From NCBI RefSeq assembly GCF_000174355.1, contig NZ_ACIS01000010.1:62001-126000 (forward strand): a DNA stretch of 64,000 bases, read 5' to 3'. The notes beneath the pieces were generated by a model. It saw only the letters and a list, made by a program, of their open reading frames with translations, searched no databases and was not told where the DNA came from. The position numbers and the translations under genes were made by a program. This document shows, piece after piece, positions 14,034-19,246 of the stretch (position 1 is the stretch's first letter; each line of letters starts with the position of its first letter). The DNA is from Pseudogulbenkiania ferrooxidans 2002. Lineage in GTDB: Bacteria; Pseudomonadota; Gammaproteobacteria; Burkholderiales; Chromobacteriaceae.

Positions 14034-14348
14034 TCAGTCGCGCGCGGGTTGCGCGCCGGCTACCATGAGCTGCAGCCAGCCCTTGGCGCAGGCGGTGTCG
14101 ACGAACGCCCGGGTGCCGCTCTCGATCTGTGCCGCGCTGTCGGGAAAGGCGGCCTGCAGGTCGGCGACGATATCGTCCACGCTGCGCTGGCCGTCGCAGC
14201 GTTTCAGGATTTCTCCGGCCGACACGTTGAGTTTGATCAGGCCTTCGGGGTAAAGCAGGATGTAGGCCTGCTGGCTCGCCTCCCAGCGAAACATGAAGTG
14301 CGGTGCCAGCCGGGGACGCGCGTGGTCGAGCGGGTGGGATGGGGTCAT
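14034..14348 (-). CDS. pqqD: PQQ biosynthesis peptide chaperone PqqD
   Basis: PqqD binds the PqqA precursor and presents it to the radical-SAM enzyme PqqE. The 104-residue protein carries the family signature RPRLAPHFMFRWEASQQAYILLYPEG, LIKLNVSAGEIL and the helical C-terminus DIVADLQAAF. The start MTPSHPLDHARPRL at 14348 has AGGAGCTACCGCC ahead of it; an ATG 24 bases upstream is less likely. It directly follows pqqA rather than pqqC as in the classical operon. Confidence 0.93.
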   Translation of the reverse strand: MTPSHPLDHARPRLAPHFMFRWEASQQAYILLYPEGLIKLNVSAGEILKRCDGQRSVDDIVADLQAAFPDSAAQIESGTRAFVDTACAKGWLQLMVAGAQPARD

Positions 14349-14409: not shown

Positions 14410-14484
14410 TCAGCGCACGTAGACGTAGGCGGTCACTTCGAAGCCAAGGCGGATTTCGCAGTAGGCGGGGGTTTCCCAGGTCAT
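14410..14484 (-). CDS. pqqA: PQQ precursor peptide PqqA
   Basis: A 24-residue peptide starting MTWETPAYCEIRLG and ending FEVTAYVYVR. The conserved Glu and Tyr with three residues between (E-V-T-A-Y) are the two that PqqE joins and that become PQQ. AAGGAGACCGTC stands ahead of the ATG. It lies 107 bases after the dihydroorotate-dehydrogenase-like gene on the same strand, so it may have its own promoter. Length and core match known PqqA peptides; the Cys at residue 9 is unusual. Confidence 0.93.
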   Translation of the reverse strand: MTWETPAYCEIRLGFEVTAYVYVR

Positions 14485-14591: not shown

Positions 14592-15329
14592 TCATGAGAC
14601 GGGCCGCGCCAGCCGCTCCTCGCACAGCATGGCGAGGCAGGCCGGGCCGTGCTCGGCGAACAGGCGATGCACCTGCACCCCGTGCGCCCCCGCCGCCAGC
14701 GCGGCACGCACGTCGGCGGCGCGGCGGATGCCGCCCACCGCGATCAGCGCCGGACCGCCGTGCAGCTGGTGTGCCAGGCCGCGCAGCGTCATGCCGTCCG
14801 GCTGGACCAGGATCAGGGCGTCGAACCCCGCCGTGGCGGCGGCGACGGCGAGGCGGACCGACGCCAGCGGCAGCTTGAGCGCGAGCGCCAGGCGGCGCCC
14901 GGAGGCCGCGGCGAGCCGGTCGCGTTCCCGCACCATGGCCGCCAGCGCCTGCCGCAGCAGCGCGTCGTGCTCCGCCGCCAGCAGCGGACGGTAGGCCCGG
15001 GCGCTGAGATTGCAGCTCAGGTAATCCGCCACCGGCGCCGCCTGCTGCAGGCCGTACAGCCAGTCGTCGTGCAGCGCTGGCGGCGCGGCGCCCGGTGTCA
15101 TGCCCAGGCCGATGCCGATGGCGCTGTCGCCACGTGCCCCGAGGCGGGCCAGCGTCGCGGCCAGCGCCGCCACGCCGGGCTGCTGCCCCGGCACCGGCTG
15201 CGGCGTCACGGTGCCGAACTCCACCGCGGCAAAGCCGGCCGCGAGCAGTGCCGCCGCCTGCGCCCCGCTCTTGTCGATGCCGCCCGCCAGCCCGGGGCGG
15301 CGGCCCCAATGAAACGGCGCCGTGTTCAC
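14592..15329 (-). CDS. Divergent dihydroorotate-dehydrogenase-like flavoprotein in the pqq operon
   Basis: The 245-residue TIM-barrel protein resembles class 2 dihydroorotate dehydrogenase but is about 90 residues shorter. GLAGGIDKSGAQAAALLAAG and EFGTVTPQPVPG match the FMN-binding N-terminal part, and GGPALIAVGGIRRAADVR matches the FMN-phosphate site. The substrate loop that reads N-x-S-S-P-N-T in PyrD is here NLSARAY: the catalytic Ser, the Pro and the second Asn are lost. It is therefore unlikely to oxidise dihydroorotate. The GTG start at 15329 overlaps the SerC-like stop (GTGA). An FMN oxidoreductase working in the pqq pathway is an inference from context. Confidence 0.8.
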   Translation of the reverse strand: MNTAPFHWGRRPGLAGGIDKSGAQAAALLAAGFAAVEFGTVTPQPVPGQQPGVAALAATLARLGARGDSAIGIGLGMTPGAAPPALHDDWLYGLQQAAPVADYLSCNLSARAYRPLLAAEHDALLRQALAAMVRERDRLAAASGRRLALALKLPLASVRLAVAAATAGFDALILVQPDGMTLRGLAHQLHGGPALIAVGGIRRAADVRAALAAGAHGVQVHRLFAEHGPACLAMLCEERLARPVS

Positions 15330-16411
15330 CCCTGTCTCCGGGCAAAGTCCGCCATGAACGCCACCAGGGCGGCGACACCGGCTTCCGGCATGGCGTTGTA
15401 GAGGCTGGCGCGCAGCCCGCCGACGTGACAGTGGCCGCGCAGATGCGTCAGCCCGGCCGCCTCGGCCTGCTGCAGGAAGGGCTCGGTGAGTCGCTCGTCC
15501 GTCAGCTGGAAACGCACGTTGCTCGGCGAGCGGTGGCCGTGCGCCACCGGCGCCCGGTAGAAGCCGCCGCTGGTGTCGATGGCGTGGTACAGCCGCTCGG
15601 CCTTGCGGCGGTTGGCCTCTGCCATTGCCGCCAGGCCGCCCGATTCCGCGATCCAGTCGAATACCAGTGCCGCGAGCTCGATGGCCCAGCCCACCGGGGT
15701 GTTCACGGTATTGTTCTCGGCCAGCTGCTGGCGATAGCAATAAGGGGCGGGGGCGTAGCGCGCCTCCCGTTGCAGCAGGTCCTCGCGCACGATCACCACG
15801 GTCAGCCCGGCCGGACCGATGTTCTTCTGGGCGCCGGCGTAGATCAGCCCGAAGCGCGATATATCCAGCGGGGCGGCGAGGAAGCAGGAGGTGGCGTCGG
15901 CCACCAGCGGCACGGCACCGGTGTTGGGCAGGGCGGGGTAGGCGATGCCTTCGCCGGTTTCGTTGGGGGTGATGTGGCAGTAGGCGCAGTCGTCCGGCAG
16001 CCGCCAGTTCTCCAGCGGCGGCGCGGCGAGCGGGGTGTCGCCCTGGTAGCGCGCCACCACCGCCACCTCGGCGAAACGGCGCGCCTCGCGGATGGCGCGG
16101 CCGGCCCAGTAGCCGGAGTCGGCGTAGGCGGCGCGACGCGACGGGCCGAGCAGGTTGAGCGGCACCATGGAAAACTGCTGCATCGCGCCACCGGCGAGGA
16201 ACAGCACGCGGTAGCCCGCGGGCAGGTCGAGCAGCGCCGCCAGGCGCTGCCGGGCGCGCTCCAGCGTGGCGCGGAACGCCGGGCTGGAGAACGGGCGCTC
16301 CAGCGCGCAGGCGCCGTCGGCGCCGCGTAGCAGCAGGGTGTCGTGTGCCCGCTCCAGCACGGCATCCGGCAGGCGCGCCGGGCCGGAGGCGAAGTTGTAG
16401 GCCGGGCTCAT
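15326..16411 (-). CDS. Divergent SerC-type PLP aminotransferase in the pqq operon
   Basis: The 361-residue protein aligns over its length with phosphoserine aminotransferase. The PLP site is intact: PLP lysine in AGAQKNIGPAGLTVVI, Trp in DSGYWAGRAIREAR, PNETGEG and the Asp in VADATSC. Residues that bind the substrate phosphate in E. coli SerC are replaced: SHRGKEF is PFSSPAF here (His41-Arg42 lost), GGGRGQF is GGAMQQF (Arg77 lost) and GHRVVGG is GHCHVGG (Arg329 lost). The carboxylate-binding Arg in GGLRAS is kept. An amino donor or acceptor other than phosphoserine is likely. It starts five bases after the PuuD-like stop. Confidence 0.85.
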   Translation of the reverse strand: MSPAYNFASGPARLPDAVLERAHDTLLLRGADGACALERPFSSPAFRATLERARQRLAALLDLPAGYRVLFLAGGAMQQFSMVPLNLLGPSRRAAYADSGYWAGRAIREARRFAEVAVVARYQGDTPLAAPPLENWRLPDDCAYCHITPNETGEGIAYPALPNTGAVPLVADATSCFLAAPLDISRFGLIYAGAQKNIGPAGLTVVIVREDLLQREARYAPAPYCYRQQLAENNTVNTPVGWAIELAALVFDWIAESGGLAAMAEANRRKAERLYHAIDTSGGFYRAPVAHGHRSPSNVRFQLTDERLTEPFLQQAEAAGLTHLRGHCHVGGLRASLYNAMPEAGVAALVAFMADFARRQG

Positions 16412-16415
16412 GGTC

Positions 16416-16922
16416 TCAGCCGAACAGGAAGCCGCCGTGCGTGCCCGCTGCCATGAAGAACAGCAGCGGCAGCGAAAGCATGGTGTTGGTGCGCGAGGAG
16501 AGATGGGTGATGCGCGAGCAGCGCAGCCGCTCCTCGACGCTGGCCGGCACCAGCCCCAGCACCTTCTTCTGATGCGGCCACAGCACGAACCAGACGTTGA
16601 GCATCATCAGCGTGCCGAGGTACAGGCCGACGCCGATCGGCGCCTGCGCCCCGTGCAGGGTCAGTGCCGACGCCAGGATGCCGCGCTGCCACAGCATCAG
16701 CAGGCCGGCGCACCAGGTCAGCACCGCCGCCCAGCGGAAGGTGCCGTGCTCGCGGTTGAGCAGCGCCTGGAAGCGCGGGCTCTGGTCGTCGGTCAGGTCC
16801 GCGGCGCTGAGCGGGCGCCAGCTTGGCCGCTGCACCACGCTGGAGTAGTTGTGGCCGACCCAGACGATGCCGGCGAGAAAATGCACCCAGCGCACCAGCA
16901 GGTCGAGTGTCATTGCGTCCAT
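16416..16922 (-). CDS. PuuD-like (urate-oxidase N-terminal) membrane protein
   Basis: A 168-residue protein with four hydrophobic segments, near 8-25, 62-80, 95-115 and 146-165. It resembles the membrane domain of PuuD-type urate hydroxylases: WVHFLAGIVWVGHNY with two His, REHGTFRWAAVLTW, and WPHQKK. The cytochrome c part of full PuuD is absent. The His positions could hold heme or a metal, but this is not shown. RBS GAGGAGACACC overlaps the end of the 31-residue gene upstream. Its place between pqqE and the SerC-like gene suggests a role in the same pathway, perhaps electron transfer. Confidence 0.72.
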   Translation of the reverse strand: MDAMTLDLLVRWVHFLAGIVWVGHNYSSVVQRPSWRPLSAADLTDDQSPRFQALLNREHGTFRWAAVLTWCAGLLMLWQRGILASALTLHGAQAPIGVGLYLGTLMMLNVWFVLWPHQKKVLGLVPASVEERLRCSRITHLSSRTNTMLSLPLLFFMAAGTHGGFLFG

Positions 16923-17027: not shown

Positions 17028-18173
17028 TCACTCCTCCATGAAGCTGGTGCAGACGCCGTTGGCGGAACGCTTGATCAGCGGCTTGCGGAAGCGCTGTGGC
17101 GCCACCGCCTGCGTCACCGCCGCCTGCACCAGGACATGCTGCGGCGAGCGGCTGCAGGCCGGGTCGGTGTTGCCGGCGTCGCCGGTGAGCAGGAAGGCCT
17201 GGCAGCGGCAGCCGCCGAAATCTTTTTCCTTTTCGGAACAGGAACGGCACGGTTCCGGCAGCCAGTCGAGCCCGCGGTATTTGCGGAACAGCGGCGAGTC
17301 GTGCCAGATCCAGGCCAGGGATTGATCCCGCACCGAGTGGAATTCCAGCCCGGGAATCACGCGTGCCTCCTGGCACGGCATCGCCACGCCGTCGGGGGCG
17401 ATGGTGAGATGGATGGCGCCCCAGCCGTTCATGCACGCCTTGGGGCGGTCTTCGAAGTAGTCGGGGATGACGAAATAGATCGTCATGGCGCCGTCGAGCC
17501 GTTCGCGCCAGCGCTGGATCACCGCCTCGGCCCGCTGGATCTGCTCGCGCGTCGGCATCAGCTCGTCGCGGTTGAGCAGCGCCCAGTTGTAGTACTGGAT
17601 GTTGGCGAATTCGATGTACTCGACGCCGAGCTCGGCGGCCCACGCTACCATCTCGTCGATCAGGTCGATGTTGTGGCGGAATACCGGCATGTTGAGCACC
17701 ATCGGGAAGCCGTACGCCTTGATCAGGCGTGCCGCTTCCAGCTTGCGGGCGTGGGCGCGGGTGCCCACCAGCTGGTCGGTGAGCGCGGCGCGGGTCGCTT
17801 GCAGCGACAGCTGCACCTGCTTCAGGCCGGCCTGCTTGAGCGCCGCCATGCGCGCCTCGTTGAGCCCGACCCCCGAGGTGATCAGGTTGGTGTAGAAGCC
17901 CAGCTCGTCGGCGTAGGCCACCAGCTCTTCCAGGTCGGGACGCTGCAACGGTTCGCCGCCGGTGAAGCCCAGCTGCAGTGCGCCCAGCTCGCGCGCTTCG
18001 GCGAGCACGCGTTTCCATTCTTCGGTGCTGAGTTCGTGTTCGGTGTACTTGTCGAAATCCAGCGGGTTGTTGCACCACGAGCATTTCAGCGGGCAGCGGT
18101 AGGTCAGTTCCAGCGACAGCCACAGCGGTTTGCCCTGGCCATCCAGGCTGAGCCCGGTCGATTCTTTCGGCAT
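17028..18173 (-). CDS. pqqE: PqqA peptide cyclase (radical SAM)
   Basis: PqqE forms the carbon-carbon bond between Glu and Tyr of PqqA while PqqD holds the peptide. The 381 residues contain the radical-SAM cluster motif CPLKCSWC near residue 30, FTGGEPLQRPDLEELV near 70, and the SPASM region with CQEARVIPGLEF, EPCRSCSEKEKDFGGCRCQAF and DPACSRSPQH. All look canonical. It heads a tight operon with the 31-residue, PuuD-like, SerC-like and DHOD-like genes. A 260-base gap containing a TGTAGACCGG/GGCCGTACA inverted repeat (18222-18245) separates it from the upstream response regulator. Confidence 0.96.
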   Translation of the reverse strand: MPKESTGLSLDGQGKPLWLSLELTYRCPLKCSWCNNPLDFDKYTEHELSTEEWKRVLAEARELGALQLGFTGGEPLQRPDLEELVAYADELGFYTNLITSGVGLNEARMAALKQAGLKQVQLSLQATRAALTDQLVGTRAHARKLEAARLIKAYGFPMVLNMPVFRHNIDLIDEMVAWAAELGVEYIEFANIQYYNWALLNRDELMPTREQIQRAEAVIQRWRERLDGAMTIYFVIPDYFEDRPKACMNGWGAIHLTIAPDGVAMPCQEARVIPGLEFHSVRDQSLAWIWHDSPLFRKYRGLDWLPEPCRSCSEKEKDFGGCRCQAFLLTGDAGNTDPACSRSPQHVLVQAAVTQAVAPQRFRKPLIKRSANGVCTSFMEE

Positions 18174-18433: not shown

Positions 18434-19081
18434 TTAGACGTCGATCAGGCCGCAACGCACCGCGATCAGCGCCAATTCGGCGGCGTTCTGCACGTTGAGC
18501 TTCTGCTTGATGTGGTAGAGGTGGGTGCCGACGGTGCTCGGGCTCAGGTGCAGTTCCTCCGCCACCTCGTTGACCGAGTGTCCCTGGGCGAGCTGCAGGA
18601 AGATGGCGAATTCCTTGTCGGTGAGTGCTTCGGAGGGGTCGGCGGCACCGCCCAGCTGGGCCAGCGCCACCTGCTGCGCCAGCTGCGGATCGAGATAGCG
18701 CTGGTTGTTGCCGATCTGGCGCACCGCCTTGACGAACTCCTGCGGGGCGCTGCGCTTGCACAGGTAGCCCAGGGCGCCGATGCGCAGCGCGCGTACCGGC
18801 ATCGCCACTTCATGGTGCGCCGAGAGGATCAGCACGCGCGCCGCGGGATGGCGCGCGCGCAGCCGTTCGAGAGTGGCGAAGCCGCCCATGCCGGGCATGT
18901 AGAGGTCGAGGATCAGCACGTCGGGCCGGGTTTCTTCGTACAGGCGCAAGGCCTCCTCGCCGTTGTCGGCTTCGCCCAGCACCTGGGCCCCGGCGCTTTC
19001 CAGCAGCGTGCGCAGGCCCATGCGTACCAGCGCGTGATCGTCGACGAGCAGGATGCTCAAGCCGGCCAGCGATTGTTTCAT
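18434..19081 (-). CDS. LuxR/NarL-family response regulator
   Basis: The 215-residue protein has a receiver domain (residues 8-125; acidic DDH pocket, phospho-Asp in VLILDLYMPGMGG, Lys in LCKRSAP) and a LuxR-type HTH (about 148-210; EVAEELHLSPSTVGTHLYHIKQKL). No histidine kinase is beside it. Regulators of this type control PQQ-dependent alcohol dehydrogenases and pqq genes in other proteobacteria, and its place just upstream of pqqE on the same strand suggests the same here. The start at 19081 was chosen from GGGAGAG and because the receiver begins there. Confidence 0.88.
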   Translation of the reverse strand: MKQSLAGLSILLVDDHALVRMGLRTLLESAGAQVLGEADNGEEALRLYEETRPDVLILDLYMPGMGGFATLERLRARHPAARVLILSAHHEVAMPVRALRIGALGYLCKRSAPQEFVKAVRQIGNNQRYLDPQLAQQVALAQLGGAADPSEALTDKEFAIFLQLAQGHSVNEVAEELHLSPSTVGTHLYHIKQKLNVQNAAELALIAVRCGLIDV

Positions 19082-19246
19082 CGTGGACTCTCCCATAGGC
19101 GCTTGCCGAGGCGGGCGCGGCGGCGGCGCGGCCTCGGCAACGTACCGTGCCGTGAGCGGGACGGTTTCCGTCACCCTGCATGGTAGGGAGCGCGGCGGCG
19201 AGGCACTATTCGCCGGATGGGGTGGCGCGCCGGGAAAGAGGCACTA

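Follow-up and report, generated by a model that had tools for sequence, protein, structure and literature searches.

A window of 64,000 nucleotides from Pseudogulbenkiania ferrooxidans 2002 was analysed, in which a cluster of PQQ-related genes is encoded on the minus strand. The order of transcription is a gene for a LuxR/FixJ-type response regulator with Response_reg and GerE domains (18434..19174), which lies upstream of the cluster, followed by pqqE2 (17028..18173), uoxN (16416..16922), serC2 (15326..16411), pyrD2 (14592..15329), pqqA2 (14410..14484) and pqqD2 (14034..14348, ATG at 14348). PqqE2, a radical SAM/SPASM peptide cyclase, and the peptide chaperone PqqD2 both scored above the curated cut-offs (TIGR02109, 505 bits, cut-off 381; TIGR03859, 96.6 bits, cut-off 46). 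The precursor peptide PqqA2, MTWETPAYCEIRLGFEVTAYVYVR, carries Glu16 and Tyr20 at the cross-link positions and ends in GFEVTAYVYVR, a C-terminus common to the cluster loci. UoxN is a membrane protein matching PF06181 (8.5e-13, profile positions 169-238 of 295), and PyrD2 is a short DHODH-like flavoprotein of 245 amino acids with a GTG start (PF01180). uoxN, serC2 and pyrD2 lie close together: 4 nt separate uoxN from serC2, and the stop of serC2 overlaps the start of pyrD2 by 4 nt. pqqB and pqqC were absent from the cluster in the window.

The window cluster as the sole PQQ set of the genome was ruled out by a full canonical pqqABCDE with a distinct PqqA (MRTWTTPKVIEVSLGCEINCYMCAER) on a third contig; its PqqE is 49% identical to PqqE2. 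The second, canonical serC that the initial annotation had suggested looking for was present on another contig. Its product contains the motifs SHRGKEF, GGASLQF and GHRAVGG and is 47% identical to SerC2, an identity from which there can be little doubt that SerC2 adopts the SerC fold.

The open reading frame of serC2 runs from 16411 to 15326 on the minus strand, starts with ATG and encodes 361 amino acids; the proposed reading frame was thereby found to be real. In a profile search the best whole-protein models for SerC2 were those of SerC. The score against NF003764 was 410 bits, above the cut-off of 253, and that against TIGR01364 was 362 bits, below the cut-off of 443.6. The initial annotation had described a SerC paralogue that lost the residues binding the substrate phosphate and kept the PLP motifs and the carboxylate Arg335. 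All motif exchanges listed there were found (PFSSPAF for SHRGKEF, GGAMQQF for GGGRGQF and GHCHVGG for GHRVVGG), as were the retained PLP residues Lys198, Asp174, Thr153 (in PNET) and Trp102 and the carboxylate Arg335. The phosphate of L-phosphoserine is contacted by Arg42, Arg328, His41 and His327 in the numbering of a review (PMC12011608), which we took to match Arg42, Arg329, His41 and His328 here. At these positions the SerC2 of the window contains F41, S42 and C329, and only His328 is retained.

A residue survey compared 37 distinct SerCs with a UoxN neighbour, hereafter cluster SerCs (38 rows, L103 and L199 being one genome), with 106 ordinary SerCs that have no such neighbour. The cluster SerCs were picked by the UoxN neighbour and not by the residues scored; E. 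coli positions were read off one alignment, and the E. coli SerC reference sequence was confirmed against PDB 1BJN. His41 and Arg42 were replaced in all 36 readable cluster rows, with Phe at position 41 and T, S, D or G at position 42 (mostly Phe-Thr/Ser), and were retained in 106 of the 106 ordinary SerCs. Arg329 was lost in 32 of the 37 cluster SerCs, and the ordinary SerCs had R (95) or K (11) there. The SerC2 copies of two plasmids showed the same change at 41-42 (PFGGPDY and PFTHADF). His328 was retained in both groups alike; Lys198, Asp174, Trp102, Thr153 and Arg335 were retained in 38 of 38 cluster rows and also in ordinary SerCs. The loss of Arg77, which had been part of the initial phosphate-site argument, did not hold up as a marker of SerC2, since ordinary SerCs carry mostly Ser or Thr at this position (S 71, T 23, R 9 and H 3 among the 106) and the genome's own canonical SerC has S. 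In five loci (L231, L232, L234, L240 and L263) SerC2 has kept Arg329 (GHR), with His41-Arg42 still absent; pqqB/pqqC were present at four of these five.

Cluster and ordinary SerCs fell on two sides of one branch in a quick tree (SH-aLRT 100). The dN/dS of serC2 between congeners was approx. 0.2, from which we concluded that the gene is under purifying selection. Compared with SerC (PDB 1BJN, 4XK1), SerC2 is likewise a class V aminotransferase with the PLP residues and the carboxylate Arg335, but it has His41-Arg42 and Arg329 replaced, belongs to a separate clade and is encoded in a PQQ operon. A role of SerC2 as a further phosphoserine aminotransferase, in the synthesis of serine or pyridoxal phosphate, would fit the NF003764 score above cut-off and the intact PLP residues and Arg335. 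This explanation is nevertheless very improbable, given that His41, Arg42 and usually Arg329 are replaced across the clade, that the TIGR01364 cut-off was missed, that the genome has a canonical serC and that the linkage is always to PQQ genes. SerC2 is very probably not a phosphoserine aminotransferase in vivo.

The survey was extended to PyrD2, with residues assigned the roles that they have in DHODH. The numbering follows an E. coli PyrD sequence that matches the parts of PDB 1F76 compared. The FMN-site residues Gly63, Asp65, Asn172, Lys217 and Gly296 were retained in 38 of 38 rows, whereas the catalytic Ser175 and Asn177 were each found in 0 of 38, the Asn111 region was deleted, and Asn246-Thr247 was replaced in nearly all rows. 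On these predicted roles PyrD2 shows the same pattern as SerC2, the FMN site being kept and the orotate site lost. The AlphaFold2 model of PyrD2 is a TIM barrel (pLDDT 90.9) with E. coli DHODH as top match (TM 0.81 by query). PyrD2 thus resembles the class 2 DHODH PyrD (PDB 1F76) in its barrel and FMN-site residues, but begins after the N-terminal quinone-tunnel part and has neither Ser175 nor the orotate-binding Asn residues.

UoxN resembles by sequence a part of the membrane domain (Urate_ox_N/DUF989) of PuuD, which according to genetics oxidises urate, apparently via cytochrome c, the catalase response to H2O2 not being raised (PMC4562309). In comparison to this cytochrome c urate oxidase, UoxN is about half the size, has four long helices in its model (AF2 pLDDT 87.5) and not eight, and contains no cytochrome c domain. 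H14, H24, H59 and H162 are invariant. A fold search of the UoxN model against the PDB gave no confident match. UoxN alone was rejected as a cluster marker, its family being a broad one with members in 123 of 369 genomes: matches within the cluster all exceeded approx. 200 bits, and the next-best three, which were checked, lay outside.

About 39 genomes or plasmids were found to carry the combination pqqA2-pqqD2-pqqE2-uoxN-serC2-pyrD2; they belong to the Beta-, Gamma- and Alphaproteobacteria. Carriers were the genus of the window, Dechloromonas sp. H13 and many genomes of its family, a Rhodocyclales MAG and four other genomes of the class; in Acidibrevibacterium fodinaquatile and Methylovirgula sp. 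HY1 the cluster is plasmid-borne. The family of the window falls together with Vogesella (Chromobacteriaceae); among 61 of its genomes searched, a close SerC2 occurred only in the window's genus (3 genomes). Of 399 genomes of the H13 family, 42 contained the PqqA2 motif; the reversed pattern, used as a control, had no hit. The gene order varied, with pqqA2-pqqD2 downstream of pyrD2 in the window and its congeners, and SerC2 was always linked with PQQ genes. No seventh enzyme, e.g. a protease, and no dedicated target enzyme recurred among the cluster neighbours.

A pqqAED-puuD-serC-pyrD cluster has been described in Hyphomicrobium denitrificans (Hden_0548-0553; Mol Microbiol 2025, PMC12423496); our literature search yielded no other paper on it. 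In the known pathway the last steps of PQQ synthesis depend on oxygen, and yet PQQ enzymes are in use under anoxic conditions in some denitrifiers; Klebsiella pneumoniae and Pseudomonas aeruginosa, which have the canonical genes only, make no PQQ anaerobically (PMC12423496). The same authors named other carriers, all denitrifiers, and put forward oxygen-independent PQQ synthesis as a speculation; the text contains no active-site analysis. The cluster of the window has likewise six gene kinds and is likewise a second set besides canonical pqqABCDE. It differs in that pqqA2 and pqqD2 follow pyrD2 and do not precede pqqE2, in the family of the host (Chromobacteriaceae), in having no FNR box and in the response regulator upstream. 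Neither the type of cluster nor the idea of anaerobic synthesis is therefore new. What this analysis adds is that the active sites of SerC2 and PyrD2 are re-aimed and that the cluster SerCs form a clade; a genome with a single PqqE, the plasmid-borne copies, the FNR boxes and the host of the window are likewise new.

It is established that PqqE, together with PqqD, cross-links a Glu and a Tyr of PqqA. The only PqqE of Dechloromonas sp. H13 is a PqqE2-type enzyme, accompanied by pqqB, pqqC, a PqqA2-type peptide, PqqD2 and uoxN-serC2-pyrD2, which means that both branches probably share the Glu-Tyr precursor. In L241 and L244, PqqA2- and PqqE2-type genes adjoin pqqB/pqqC without uoxN-serC2-pyrD2 nearby, an arrangement suggesting that the PqqA2-type precursor feeds ordinary PQQ synthesis. 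Together with the loci that hold both gene sets and with the genome G062 (see below), these arrangements argue that the cluster acts upon the precursor of PQQ. We consider it quite probable that SerC2 acts on a PqqA-derived intermediate. The C-terminus AYVYVR of PqqA2 was discarded as the sign of a different product, since AYVYVR-type peptides also accompany pqqB/pqqC with no serC2 nearby (L238, L239, L241, L244, L256, L257 and L259).

The cluster could instead yield another PqqA-derived molecule or a PQQ derivative, with SerC2 deaminating the Glu-Tyr unit and PyrD2 and UoxN oxidising it to a new cofactor. PQQ retains both nitrogens, and its net formation needs no amino-group removal, so that no transamination is called for on the established pathway; in addition, most loci have no pqqB or pqqC in the cluster, which has a pqqA, pqqD and pqqE of its own. 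Against this stand the PqqA2 and PqqE2 types found with pqqB/pqqC alone in L241 and L244, the one PqqE serving both branches in H13 and the lack of a recurring dedicated target enzyme, and we regard such a new cofactor as unlikely.

PqqC was retained in 39 of the 42 PqqA2 carriers, and we concluded that the cluster as a rule supplements the oxygen-dependent enzymes, without displacing them, and is seldom the sole branch. Seven loci combine pqqB/pqqC with cluster genes (L230, L231, L232, L234, L240, L242 and L248, the last ending at a contig edge). The genome G062 contains the cluster, with a gene for a PQQ alcohol dehydrogenase at a distance of 8 kb, and has PqqE2 as its only PqqE; no match to pqqB or pqqC was obtained in this MAG, which may be incomplete, so that their absence is no proof.

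Of 30 operons in which pqqA2 runs into the cluster, 13 have a perfect FNR box (TTGATN4ATCAA) upstream of pqqA2, and none of the 19 pqqA2 genes placed otherwise has one, the two groups having been sorted by hand from gene orders (Fisher p 0.0006, a value that overstates independence because six of the loci are close relatives and the 13 are thus not independent). The frequency in random 330-bp stretches of the same loci was 0.6%. The boxes sit 108-250 bp upstream of pqqA2, and among their loci are a plasmid of the Alphaproteobacteria and members of several separate families in the class of the window. One more locus has a box with a single mismatch, and seven further loci (L235, L237 and L265-L269) contain the palindrome TTGACN4GTCAA at about the same position, approx. 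183 bp upstream of pqqA2, possibly a variant Crp/Fnr-family site. A gene for a Crp/Fnr regulator precedes the Methylovirgula cluster. In five loci (L267:3242-4552, L262, L264, L265 and L269) a NIT-ANTAR gene (nitrate/nitrite sensing antiterminator) adjoins pyrD2; alternatively, this gene may head a nitrate assimilation operon.

In the window neither an FNR box nor a sigma-70 promoter was found. The response regulator encoded upstream of pqqE2 has a 61% homologue ahead of the pqqE2 of Dechloromonas sp. H13; it is a likely candidate for the regulator of the window cluster and may stand in for the FNR box.

UoxN, SerC2 and PyrD2 could also be accessory to aerobic PQQ synthesis, in off-pathway rescue or flux control, and not replace PqqB/PqqC. 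The PqqC of 39 of 42 carriers and the seven loci with both gene sets speak for such a role, as does the absence of a perfect FNR box from those seven loci and from the window. The perfect boxes at 13 cluster operons, the NIT-ANTAR genes adjoining five clusters, the denitrifying carriers of the literature (PMC12423496) and the gene content of G062 speak against it, and an accessory role appears slightly less likely still than a new cofactor.

The explanation that we favour as fairly probable is that SerC2 is a repurposed PLP enzyme outside serine synthesis, which would act on a PQQ intermediate in an alternative PQQ-forming branch, pqqA2-D2-E2-uoxN-serC2-pyrD2. In many hosts the cluster is probably an anaerobic complement to PqqB/PqqC. 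That it replaces these enzymes when oxygen is missing has, in our estimate, a somewhat better than even chance; a complete oxygen-independent route, in which the SerC- and PyrD-derived enzymes and the PuuD-like protein take the place of PqqB/PqqC and a PLP step is included, we put barely above even. The aminotransferase with a new substrate in a pqq operon, as initially annotated, was borne out in the intact PLP residues, the changed distal pocket and the linkage to PQQ genes; one of its three residue arguments, Arg77, was wrong, the operon is not the main pqq set of the genome, and the substrate is one that we infer.

The scheme that we infer for the SerC2 branch, including its substrate, product, oxygen independence and order of steps, is as follows. 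PqqE2 and PqqD2 would join Glu16 and Tyr20 of PqqA2, as assumed from PqqE, and a protease would release the cross-linked Glu-Tyr unit. UoxN, SerC2 and PyrD2 would then do without oxygen the work of PqqB and PqqC. By analogy with the cytochrome c urate oxidase, UoxN may be a ring (tyrosine) hydroxylase or oxidase, or a membrane electron outlet. PyrD2 might dehydrogenate, via FMN, a reduced ring N-CH(COO-)-CH2 unit of a PQQ intermediate; this unit would suit PyrD2 because it resembles dihydroorotate and has the same kind of bond that DHODH oxidises. SerC2 would bind an alpha-amino-acid end through Arg335, and the Phe-Thr/Ser in place of His-Arg suggests that the distal part of the substrate is bulky, uncharged and not phosphorylated. 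The reaction of SerC2 is the least certain step, and as both nitrogens are still present in PQQ, there is no obvious place for a plain transamination; PLP-assisted ring closure, desaturation and temporary transamination are the options that we propose. If true, PLP chemistry would be a previously unknown step in the synthesis of a quinone cofactor.

The active-site signatures suggest that SerC and PyrD, two housekeeping enzymes, were re-aimed together with their cofactors kept, and they make a one-paragraph proposal (PMC12423496) testable. As markers of the pathway, F41-[TS]42 in SerC, the loss of Ser175 in PyrD and the FNR box can be used, and they help to avoid annotating serC2 and pyrD2 as serine or pyrimidine genes.

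Some further genes were observed beside the PQQ genes. On the Acidibrevibacterium plasmid, and only there, an M48 metalloprotease gene (L299:10423-11601) follows the cluster, a candidate for freeing the cross-linked unit from PqqA2. The PQQ cluster of the Methylovirgula plasmid is closely preceded by a second radical-SAM peptide system (CbpA/CbpB, L300:2980-4559). The G195 genome (2.4 Mb) contains three PqqE genes (C23:120880-121917, C27:29088-30119 and C23:131690-132721) and two PqqC genes. A gene for a TonB-dependent receptor was found near pqq in ten loci (L199:16005-18176; L126, L230, L239, L241, L244, L256-L258 and L260); in some of these it adjoins the response regulator, and the receptor possibly takes up PQQ or an alcohol-related substrate.
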